Shown here: positions 2,462 through 7,464 of the stretch, piece by piece | Position numbering within the stretch: position 1 is the first letter of the stretch | How the letters are laid out: each line of letters begins with the position of its first letter | Virus record (IMG/VR): IMGVR_UViG_3300030012_000631 | Span: 1 to 28,574 of that record | DNA from: a virus | Direction: 5' to 3' (one strand) | DNA length: 28,574 nucleotides | The notes under the pieces: model-generated | What the model saw: only the letters and a program-made list of their open reading frames with translations | What the model was told of the DNA's origin: nothing | Database searches by the model: none | Program-made: the position numbers and the translations under genes

Positions 2462-3127
2462 ATGAACAATAGAATTTCAAATTATAGAAATATGCTCTTG
2501 GGGGATCATTATCGTTATATGACGTCTAATTTGAAGAAATACATACAGCTATCAGGAATGAGCCATGCTGAGGTTGCAGCTGCTAAAGGTATAGCGCCTG
2601 AAAGCCTTAGTAGGCATATATCAGGAAGGTCGCAATTCAGTATCCAGGATGCTATTGATTATGCTGAAATATTACAAATAGACCCAACTGCTATCTTGTT
2701 TGATCCTTGTAGAGTTAAAGTGTACGGCAATATAATTAATGGATTTAGTGTCAATATGGTTAATTCCAGTGAAAAAGAAAAATATGTTTATACATCTAAT
2801 ATCCGATTCGCTAGTCATGTTGGTGCATTTACTAATCAAAGATCTGAATTTAATACTTATTTTGATGGCGCTATTACCTGGGCAGATATGCGCCCAATAC
2901 AATTAGAAACAATACCCCAGGACGCTTTGAGTAGGTGCTGTATATATAAATGCGCAAAGACAAAAACTATAACTCAAGCCGTTTTGCACAAGCAACAAAG
3001 CGGTAAATTCACCATAGAACCTCTTGAACATGGACACTCTATAATGACAGATGTTGATGTTGTATGGGCGTGTCCAGTTTTAGGAAGAGCTGAACGACCT
3101 GATTTGTTAGGTTTAGAAATAAAATAA
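2462..3127 (+). CDS. CI-like phage repressor, HTH plus non-canonical C-terminal domain
   Basis: The 221-aa protein has a Cro/CI helix-turn-helix at about residues 24-78 (MSHAEVAAAKGIAPESLSRHI). A beta-rich C-terminal region starts at VKVYGNIINGFSV, which recalls the first strands of LexA/CI domains. The S24 catalytic serine motif (GDSM-like) and the matching lysine are not evident, so RecA-stimulated self-cleavage is doubtful. The C-terminal part more likely serves in oligomerisation. It is divergent from cro, has a GAGG ribosome binding site, and is followed by a perfect TGACA palindrome ahead of the recombination operon. It is the probable lysogeny repressor. Confidence 0.8.
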   Translation: MNNRISNYRNMLLGDHYRYMTSNLKKYIQLSGMSHAEVAAAKGIAPESLSRHISGRSQFSIQDAIDYAEILQIDPTAILFDPCRVKVYGNIINGFSVNMVNSSEKEKYVYTSNIRFASHVGAFTNQRSEFNTYFDGAITWADMRPIQLETIPQDALSRCCIYKCAKTKTITQAVLHKQQSGKFTIEPLEHGHSIMTDVDVVWACPVLGRAERPDLLGLEIK

Positions 3128-5513: not shown

Positions 5514-5697
5514 AACTTTATTAAGACCTAAAGAAGTAGCCATAAGATTGTTTGGTGATTTTGGTGATACTAATCGTAAAAGAATTTATCGCTGGATACA
5601 TAACAAAAAAATAAAATCTATAAAAGATAATAGAGTGTACTTTATACCTAAATCTGAAATACACCGTATTGAATCAGAAATGGAAATGGCGGATTAG
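5494..5697 (+). CDS. xis: Excisionase-like winged-helix/HTH protein
   Basis: The 67-aa protein has the layout of MerR-like excisionases: LLRPKEVAIRLFGD (helix), NRKRIYRWIHNKKIKSIKDNR (recognition helix and wing) and YFIPKSEIHRIE (final helix). It is the last gene of the recombination operon and converges on the integrase gene, overlapping it by four bases. This fits a recombination directionality factor expressed with lytic functions. Three ATGs are in tandem at 5488, 5491 and 5494; GGAG at 5484-5487 is best spaced for the third. An operon regulator is the alternative. The symbol is by fold and position. Confidence 0.65.
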   Translation: MASLEGRTLLRPKEVAIRLFGDFGDTNRKRIYRWIHNKKIKSIKDNRVYFIPKSEIHRIESEMEMAD

Positions 5698-5707
5698 TTT
5701 CCGCCAT
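5686..5707. other. Hairpin at the convergent xis/int junction
   Basis: ATGGCGGA and TCCGCCAT form a perfect 8-bp inverted repeat around the 6-base loop TTAGTT. The stop codons of both convergent genes lie in that loop. No clear U-tract follows on either strand, so it is either a weak bidirectional terminator or an mRNA 3'-end structure. Confidence 0.6.
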
Positions 5708-6842
5708 ACATTGCTGAAGCAGCTGCTTGTCTTGCCTTCGCTTGCTTTCTTTCATTCTTAACAAAGTGACCATACTGCTTGTAAGTAAAGTTAGAGTTTG
5801 AATGCCCCATAAGAGCAGCTACTTCCGCCCAATCTTCACCCAGGCTAGATAACTGTACTGATGCATAAAAGTGTCTCATATCGCCCCATAGGATAGGTTT
5901 TACACCAGCTCTTTCACAAACTCTTTTGATTAATTTGATCAATATCTTTTGTACTTTTGGTGTACCGTTGGAGCTTGCAAAAACAATGTCACCAGGTGCG
6001 CTAAACTTTGATGCAATCTTTAGCTCTTTAAGTTTCTTCATAGTAGATGCATCAATAGGTATTTCTCTTCTACCTCTTTTAGTTTTAGTGTCACCAATAA
6101 TCATTGTGCCATGCTTCACTGCACCCTCGATACGAATTGTATCATTATTAAAATCAATGTTGCCCCACTTCAATGCACGCAGTTCACCTTGTCTCATGCC
6201 GCTTGCAAGAGCTGTAAGAACCATACACTGATCATAAAGAGTTTCAGATGGTAATCCGTCACTAACAATCTTTTGAATTGTCTCAGGCTGTATTCTTGGC
6301 GCCCTATCCCCAAGCTCTGATGACATACCTAATGATACTTTATCAAGAGGGTTGATCGTAATCCAACCTTTAAGATCACAATAATTTAAAAACATTTTTA
6401 ATACTTTAATTCTTTTCTCAGCTGTAGCTTTTGATTTACCTTCGTCAGTAATACCTTTTACAAAAGCTGTAACTAATTCAGATTTGTTTTCTCTTTTAAT
6501 AATATCAAAACTTTGATCTAAAAATTTCTTACCATCAATCTTTATATCCAAACAATAACTTAATGATTTTTTAATCTCTTTGAAAAATGAAACAGACAAT
6601 TCTTTATTGTCTATTCTAGTTGTTTGGTAATGATAAAATTTATCTACTGCCTGAGATACTTTTACTACGTCAACTTTTTCTGCAATAGCACCAGTAATAA
6701 ATTTAGCTTTGAGTAATTCAGCTTCTTTCAGAGCAGCTGCTTTTGATGGATAGTTACCGTACCTATTGTTAAAACCAATACGCCTTGCATCAATAACCCA
6801 TTGCTTTCTTTTTTCCCAGTACCTTACTTTAAGATCTTTCAT
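5694..6842 (-). CDS. int: Tyrosine-family phage integrase
   Basis: This 382-aa protein catalyses site-specific recombination between attP and a host tRNA gene. Residues 1-50 look like an AP2-type arm-binding domain (YWEKRKQWVIDARRIG), residues 60-170 like the SAM-like core-binding domain and residues 180-375 like the catalytic domain. The visible active site is R217 (ASGMRQGELRALKW), a lysine in the TKTKRGRREIPI hairpin, R323 (GDMRHFYAS), H347 (MGHSNSNFT) and the nucleophile Y357 (KQYGHF). The first residue of the HxxR box is Gly320 instead of His, a variation worth noting. It follows the 100-aa gene by a TAATG overlap and lies about 470 bases from the attP core. Confidence 0.92.
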   Translation of the reverse strand: MKDLKVRYWEKRKQWVIDARRIGFNNRYGNYPSKAAALKEAELLKAKFITGAIAEKVDVVKVSQAVDKFYHYQTTRIDNKELSVSFFKEIKKSLSYCLDIKIDGKKFLDQSFDIIKRENKSELVTAFVKGITDEGKSKATAEKRIKVLKMFLNYCDLKGWITINPLDKVSLGMSSELGDRAPRIQPETIQKIVSDGLPSETLYDQCMVLTALASGMRQGELRALKWGNIDFNNDTIRIEGAVKHGTMIIGDTKTKRGRREIPIDASTMKKLKELKIASKFSAPGDIVFASSNGTPKVQKILIKLIKRVCERAGVKPILWGDMRHFYASVQLSSLGEDWAEVAALMGHSNSNFTYKQYGHFVKNERKQAKARQAAASAMYGGN

Positions 6843-7144
6843 TATACTATCCCCTTCGCCAGGTATTTAAAAAAGTCATAAACATCACCGTTTAGAAAAT
6901 CTATTTTTACAAATGTTGATTTAATTTTATTTTTTGTTTTTAGATCAACACCTTTGATATAAGATATTACATTTGAAAGTTCTATTAAGTGTAGCTCTTC
7001 ATTTTTCTCAATTTCAAAAGTAAAATTAATATCAAGATCTTTTTCCTCAACAAAGGTATCAATCCATTTATTAAAAGAATACCATTCAGGTTGTAACCAA
7101 TCATGTGATTTGTAATGTGATCCGATTTGTTTGTGAACATCCAT
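6842..7144 (-). CDS. Hypothetical protein upstream of integrase
   Basis: Not recognised. The 100-aa protein is acidic and soluble-looking, Trp-rich near the N-terminus (HDWLQPEWYSFNKWID), with a strand-rich middle and a C-terminal helix. It has a clear GGAGAG ribosome binding site and is the first gene of the integrase transcript, just after an operator. Its TAATG junction with int means integrase translation is probably coupled to it. The position suggests a role in integration or its control, but no HTH is visible. Confidence 0.72.
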   Translation of the reverse strand: MDVHKQIGSHYKSHDWLQPEWYSFNKWIDTFVEEKDLDINFTFEIEKNEELHLIELSNVISYIKGVDLKTKNKIKSTFVKIDFLNGDVYDFFKYLAKGIV

Positions 7145-7206: not shown

Positions 7207-7224
7207 GAGCAGAACAGAAAAAAA

Positions 7225-7244
7225 TGTGTACAAAATGTGTACAA
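7225..7244. repeat. Arm-type direct repeat pair, int-proximal side of attP
   Basis: Two TGTGTACA units start 11 bases apart (7225 and 7236), one helical turn. The same 20-base block recurs in the same orientation at 7445-7464, on the other side of the tRNA-like core. Paired repeats flanking a core are what arm-type integrase sites look like. Confidence 0.65.
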
Positions 7245-7312
7245 GCTAAATTTATAATAGTTTTGGAATAGGTCTTGTGGGGGATAAGCCATTGATATTA
7301 CTAGAAATATAA

Positions 7313-7357
7313 TGGCGAGAGTGACGAGACTCGAACTCGCGACCTCCGACGTGACAG
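7313..7357 (-). other. attP: attP core: 3' half of a tRNA-Asp(GUC) gene
   Basis: Read on the minus strand, these 45 bases match tRNA-Asp from position 32 to the 3' end. They comprise the anticodon loop CTGTCAC (anticodon GTC), the 3' anticodon arm GTCGG, the variable loop, the T-stem GCGAG/CTCGT around TTCGAGT, the acceptor strand CACTCTC, discriminator G and encoded CCA. The 5' half is absent: the bases before CTGTCAC cannot form the anticodon stem. The core would restore the host tRNA gene after integration, so the attachment site is very probably a host tRNA-Asp gene. The strand is the same as int. Confidence 0.85.
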
Positions 7358-7444
7358 TTCGTAAAAAACCTATGCGTGGGGTGTAAAGAGGTAGGTATTC
7401 AGGGAAATACGGCTACAGAGTTCCCACCGATTCCCTCGAAAAAG
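7358..7444. other. Non-coding attP segment between core and distal arm repeats
   Basis: No gene is seen here. The segment is less AT-rich than its surroundings and has a small inverted repeat (GTATT/AATAC at 7395-7410) and GGGAA/TTCCC segments that could pair. Accessory sites for IHF or excisionase would be expected in such a segment, but none can be named with confidence. Confidence 0.4.
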
Positions 7445-7464
7445 TGTGTACAAAATGTGTACAA
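7445..7464. repeat. Arm-type direct repeat pair, late-gene side of attP
   Basis: This is the second copy of the two-unit TGTGTACA block, with units at 7445 and 7456 and the same 11-base spacing. It lies exactly 220 bases from the first copy and ends immediately before the stop codon of the last late gene. Together with the first copy it brackets the tRNA-like core. Confidence 0.65.

Follow-up and report, generated by a model that had tools for sequence, protein, structure and literature searches.

A probable phage attachment site with a tRNA-Asp half as its core and tandem repeats that covary with the integrase N-terminal domain

The viral DNA analysed here (28,574 nucleotides; hereafter the window) carries half of a tRNA-Asp gene between two identical 20-base blocks, which raises the question of whether this is a phage attachment site (attP) and which protein would read the repeats. 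We consider it, with a probability of about 0.9, to be the attP of an HTVC010P-type podovirus that is temperate or at least able to integrate, and that has a lambda-type heterobivalent integrase.

Layout of the region and of the integrase

In a repeat search the 20-mer TGTGTACAAAATGTGTACAA was found exactly twice, at 7225-7244 and 7445-7464, both on the plus strand and 220 bp apart from start to start, and between both copies lies, on the minus strand, the 45-nt 3' half of a tRNA-Asp(GUC) gene, CTGTCACGTCGGAGGTCGCGAGTTCGAGTCTCGTCACTCTCGCCA. This confirms the arrangement described in an earlier note made from the sequence alone, as well as its two units per block one helical turn apart: in the 28.6 kb window the unit TGTGTACA starts at 7225, 7236, 7445 and 7456 and nowhere else, the units of each block being 11 bp apart. 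The unit proposed in that note is thus present, but the true one, judged from relatives, is the minus-strand 11-mer TTGTACACATT. No complete tRNA gene was detected in the window by ARAGORN or Rfam, as expected because 7313-7357 is a tRNA half; the stretch over which it matches tRNA-Asp genes of alphaproteobacteria runs from the anticodon loop through the CCA end. The features, all on the minus strand, are as follows.

7223-7244, minus: probable int-proximal (P'-like) arm, two tandem 11-bp sites TTGTACACATT at 7223-7233 and 7234-7244 (repeat search, relatives' alignment, N-domain covariation)
7285-7297, minus: putative IHF-consensus site TATCAATGGCTTA (WATCARNNNNTTR) (exact consensus match in the interval between core and int-proximal arm, a lambda H'-like position)
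7313-7357, minus: predicted attP core, the 45-nt tRNA-Asp(GUC) 3' half, anticodon loop to CCA (alignment of relatives and host tRNA genes)
7443-7464, minus: probable distal (P-like) arm, two tandem 11-bp sites, 7443-7453 TTGTACACACT and 7454-7464 TTGTACACATT (repeat search, relatives)
6842-7144, minus: accessory ORF of 100 aa (phrog_6004), lying between integrase and attP in a slot whose content varies (relatives lack this ORF or have another)
5694-6842, minus: tyrosine integrase, 382 aa (domain and profile matches, predicted fold)

On the integrase side, attP is separated from the tyrosine integrase by 380 bp containing the 100-aa ORF, and the 382-aa integrase is followed by a repressor-like HTH_3 gene (2462-3127); on the other side lie small ORFs, an endolysin and virion genes. 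Since phage genes flank the site on both sides, it is unintegrated in the IMG/VR record, which bears out what the earlier note had claimed, and the note's description of an intact attP is supported by the adjoining tyrosine integrase and by retention of the layout in relatives. No excisionase (RDF) gene was recognised among the ORFs neighbouring attP in this record, which is a fragment. The tail tubular protein B is 50-58% identical to that of the HTVC010P/HTVC203P/HTVC034P group and the neighbouring structural genes are HTVC010P-like; on these genes we type the window as a fragment of a marine HTVC010P-type podovirus. The interval between attP and integrase is a variable cargo slot, with no ORF in G001, phrog_6004 in the window and another ORF in G008 and G010, so that attP and int lie about 90 to 860 bp apart in the window and the equivalents in L007-L018.

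The integrase matches PF00589 (E 3e-22) and phrog_1 (E 3e-45) and consists of a putative N-terminal arm-binding domain (residues 1-50), a core-binding domain (about 62-160) and a catalytic domain (about 180-382). No Pfam arm-binding (AB) domain was matched in it, even at a relaxed threshold. AlphaFold, run on a 36-sequence alignment, gave a model with a mean pLDDT of 82 (about 86-90 in the N-domain), in which the N-domain is predicted to comprise strands 5-9, 14-18 and 28-31 and a helix 34-50; strand 2 ends with residue 18, and residues 25-27 immediately precede strand 3. Foldseek/VIA matched the model to Tn1549 Int, lambda Int and Cre. The best solved-structure matches of the core-binding and catalytic part were Tn1549 Int 6emy/6en2, and lambda Int 1z1b (chain A) aligns from model residue 2, that is, with the N-domain included. 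In the catalytic domain, inspection by eye of residues 319-324 (WGDMRH; about 5871-5888, minus strand) showed the histidine of the HxxR motif to be replaced by glycine; it is replaced family-wide (by Ser or Ala in some relatives), and the Arg, the LGH-type His and the Tyr motifs are present.

Identity of the core and the search for a host gene

The same 20-mer occurs twice at 220-bp spacing in five other IMG/VR contigs and all closer relatives keep the arrangement, so the pair is not a product of chance. Integrase searches yielded 12 further loci and then about 80 more. Besides tRNA-Asp, the relatives' cores derive from tRNA-Glu, tRNA-Ala or probably tRNA-Trp (that of G008 reads as tRNA-Glu(UUC)), and therefore the family is not tied to tRNA-Asp; in every case the tRNA half stops precisely at CCA. 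The contig of G008 ends in a direct terminal overlap within its attP region, as in a circular assembly.

The core was expected to name a host tRNA-Asp gene; near-identical halves were found in alphaproteobacteria, but no exact gene. In two alphaproteobacterial genomes (G825 and G924) the tRNA-Asp gene is identical to the relatives' core except at one position (44/45), and among 297 genomes assigned to Pelagibacterales by their size, GC and gene content only three come within 3 mismatches of the core, the best at 43/45. Compared with its relatives, the window core carries a single additional change of its own, a C replaced by T in the anticodon stem, which would still allow pairing as G-U. Searches for the core, exact and near-exact, covered 398 genomes of Pseudomonadota, 297 of Pelagibacterales and 385 of alphaproteobacteria, and none gave an exact 45-nt match. 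A prophage with the window integrase beside tRNA-Asp, for which the earlier note had suggested a search, was found neither in 397 Pelagibacterales genomes, where the integrase profile gave no match to an integrase of this family, nor in the 385 alphaproteobacterial genomes, where the profile gave distant catalytic-domain matches only; no attL/attR pair was found in either set. Scanning genome contigs with the window integrase returned one distant match.

Covariation of the arms with the integrase N-domain

Alignment of the relatives' attP regions resolves the arm unit as an 11-bp tandem, TTGT-n5n6n7n8n9-TT, in which n5-n9 vary; a de novo search that did not presuppose the TTGT frame recovered the nine-mers common to both arms. 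This middle part differs between phages and is identical on both sides of the core within each phage, and arm types switch on both sides together among integrases 62-99% identical to that of the window. An integrase segment around residues 24-27 changes in step with the arm type. ACACA arms (the window and five others) go with FNNR or LNNR at residues ~24-27, AGACA (G002/G003) with YSHY, TAACA (G004) with YSVN, TTGCA (G005, and also G009-G011, whose integrases are only 62-63% identical) with YSHA, and ACCCA (G008) with LGNK. At distant loci, LNDR is paired with ACTAC, LDTK with CCCAG, LSVN/LTVN with TATAG, LSHS with TGTAG, MSAK/KATK with TCCAG, LQRR with GCCAC, MHQK with GTTCA and RSDK with TCAG-TCCAG.

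All integrase columns were scanned against 27 nonredundant integrase/arm pairs. The best predictors of base n5 are residues 25 and 26 (conditional entropy 0.30 and 0.43 bits of 1.74) and those of n6 are residues 27 and 26 (0.18 of 1.66 bits; next column 0.72), while n8 is fully explained in the 27 pairs by residue 18, Asp going with C and Asn with A. Bases n7 and n9 were assigned to no residues, since a large number of columns tie throughout the protein and their signal cannot be told apart from phylogeny. In 86 pairs the catalytic domains are at least 75% identical. Of these, 58 have both different arms and different residues 25-27, and 23 agree in both; 5 differ in residues 25-27 only and 0 in the arms only. 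In phylogenetically independent pairs, n6=A goes with Asn27 in 5/5, and n6=C with Lys or Arg27 in 5/6 with none opposed, sign tests on these few pairs reaching p 0.06 at best. In a second clade, with TTGG-type arms, the residue-18 rule holds for GTACG, CAACG, ATACG and GGAAG; the Asp18=C rule fails in one arm type of that clade, GGAGT (TTGGGGAGT), and Lys27=C fails in L184.

Because the repeats covary with the N-terminal domain of the neighbouring integrase, they are very probably its arm sites, as the earlier note had proposed. A nearly one-residue-to-one-base code (27 to n6, 25/26 to n5, 18 to n8), switched repeatedly with all arm sites at once to serve as a private address that prevents mutual excision or rearrangement at the same tRNA, is a further possibility, which we put forward tentatively and at somewhat less than even odds.

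Several relatives show irregular attachment regions. G009-G011 (L038, L036 and L037) have a YSHA integrase and a single TTGTTTGCATT site and lack a tRNA core next to int; the full attP at this place is therefore not kept by every relative, and theirs may be deleted or located elsewhere. In G005 (L011:4001-5146; also L087 and L130) codon 10 of the integrase is an in-frame stop, and attP carries an expanded array of about eight TTGTTTGCATT sites. L180 keeps the distal arm pair TTGTTATAG and has apparently lost the int-proximal arm by deletion, possibly leaving a crippled attP. In the L108 group (RSDK, RFRADNNCYCIN) the TTGT half, fixed elsewhere, is TCAG and strand 1 of the N-domain is rewritten, which suggests that this strand reads the first half of the arm site.

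Separate modules, alternatives and relation to known systems

Comparison of whole loci separates what accompanies the arms from what accompanies the core. L098 and L100 have core-binding and catalytic domains 98% identical and a common tRNA-Ala core, and differ in N-domains and arms; the same contrast recurs between L174 and L180 with a tRNA-Glu core, on a backbone only about 24-38% identical. Conversely, the N-domain type and arms are common to L098 and L174, whose core-binding domains are 24% identical and whose cores are Ala and Glu, and L142/L137 and L133/L146 have N-domains 96-98% identical and the same arms, with core-binding domains at 52-58% and cores that differ. A tree built from residues 58-382 requires at least 23 changes of arm type, against 5 of core type. 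Thus, as read from these sequences, the arms follow the N-domain and the tRNA core follows the core-binding domain, as two separately evolving modules. The order along the DNA is distal arm, core, proximal arm, N-domain, core-binding domain, so that the two couplings interleave; simple linkage is therefore a poor explanation, and a functional one appears better.

This interleaving bears on the idea that N-domain and arms travel together merely as DNA neighbours, hitch-hiking in mosaic recombination. Phage genomes are mosaic and only 0.1-0.8 kb separate the int-proximal arm from the codons of the N-domain, but the distal arm keeps pace with the N-domain even though the core between them goes with the core-binding domain, an interleaved coupling which one block exchange does not give (L098/L100, L142/L137, L133/L146), and covariation is confined to particular residues and does not extend over the whole domain. 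We regard this explanation as very unlikely. Marginally less improbable, though still very unlikely, is that the tandem 11-bp repeats bind an excisionase and not the integrase, keeping in mind that RDF sites commonly come as direct repeats spaced by a helical turn, as for Apl of phage 186 (PMC7498355), that attP here holds direct repeats at just such an 11-bp spacing, and that an ORF annotated without a function lies upstream of int. However, the repeats are symmetric about the core and change along with particular residues of the integrase N-domain, G001 has the same repeats but not the upstream ORF, and none of the neighbouring ORFs was recognised as an RDF gene.

The least probable alternative, to which we give hardly any weight, is that the HTH_3 repressor (2462-3127) uses the repeats as operators, or that they are promoter elements, with the tRNA half being what is left of a phage tRNA gene after decay. 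A repressor-like gene is indeed present and the TGTACA in the window variant is palindromic, but the palindrome is limited to that variant and lost in relatives, and the repeats are direct, not inverted, and occur in the window only at attP. A tRNA half that always ends at CCA and is swapped among Asp, Glu, Ala and probably Trp also argues against decay. The repressor-operator reading was rejected on the confinement of the repeats to attP and the lack of conservation of the palindrome.

Returning to arm sites read by the integrase N-domain, as covariation and domain shuffling suggest, we infer from the computed layout, conservation, covariation, domain shuffling, IHF-site enrichment and predicted fold how physical binding, strand exchange and tRNA restoration would proceed. 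The core-binding and catalytic domains of the 382-aa integrase would act on the tRNA-Asp core, as in lambda Int, and the small N-domain with its three-stranded sheet would bind the four 11-bp arm sites, two in tandem per side. IHF or a similar bender would fold the DNA at 7285-7297, allowing one integrase to bridge core and arm. On the integrase side, recombination with a tRNA-Asp gene of the host would restore the tRNA, the 5' half being contributed by the host and the 3' half by the phage. Residues 25-27, in the loop into strand 3, would set n5-n6, and residue 18, at the end of strand 2, n8; arm switching probably stops cross-excision among phages with a common tRNA site.

The attP itself is of a familiar type; it is the natural arm-recognition code with covarying N-domains that goes beyond the routine. 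As in lambda Int and its attP (PMC4880445), core-binding and catalytic domains are joined to an N-domain of similar predicted fold and arms stand on both sides of the core. Unlike lambda, the window has a core derived from a tRNA gene, its 11-bp arm sites are simple direct tandems in a 2+2 arrangement, its attP showed no recognisable Xis, Fis, H1 or H2 sites, and the arm specificity of its family varies between close relatives. Lambda and HK022 have the same arms and different cores. Integrases with an AB domain of three strands and one helix are established (PMC8138268), and among those of the IntTn916/Tn1549 type Tn1549 Int offers the best solved-structure match for the core-binding and catalytic part; unlike them, the window represents a putative phage of alphaproteobacteria at tRNA genes, with no Pfam AB-domain match. 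Attachment sites with tRNA fragments, used for host prediction, are established in marine podoviruses (PMC3861242, PMC4981710, PMC6811365, PMC8776855). An integrase with a tRNA-fragment attP is likewise found in the marine podoviruses of the HTVC011P/025P group, uv-Fonsiphage-EPL, P-SSP7 and S-TIP37, with tRNA-Leu (PMC6811365, PMC8776855), and in uncultured marine phages linked to hosts by integrase and att (PMC3861242, PMC4981710). Unlike the present case, a different tRNA is involved in these pelagiphage, cyanophage and uncultured-phage reports, the core serves only for host prediction or integration tests, and their available parts describe no arm sites or arm-integrase covariation. The open-licence PMC literature yielded no report of arm-site/N-domain covariation or of a residue-to-base relation, which is weak evidence of novelty.

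Arm-site specificity of integrases has so far been studied in a few model phages. At least a dozen natural integrase/arm pairs, several in nearly identical frames and on two catalytic backbones, amount to a ready-made experiment on the way in which the N-domain recognises DNA and on how the specificity for the arms and that for the core diverge in evolution. They yield exact and cheap binding predictions, would make arm sites predictable from metagenomic integrase sequences, and suggest why phages at one common tRNA site diversify their arms.

In the lambda scheme of arms, core and IHF, the H' site lies between the core and the int-proximal arm (PMC4880445), and the IHF-consensus site of the window takes the same position by sequence match. 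An exact IHF consensus 15-17 nt beyond the CCA end was found in 18/35 attPs, compared with 0.09 expected in shuffles, and in all relatives of the window's group; about half of the attPs are without it. Between core and int-proximal arm, several sister lineages among L095, L098-L128 and L174 (e.g. L109, L128 and L174) carry a GC-rich hairpin, GCCCTCGGCC...GGCTGGGGGC-T7, resembling an intrinsic terminator and not evident in the window, which is perhaps the terminator of the rebuilt tRNA gene.
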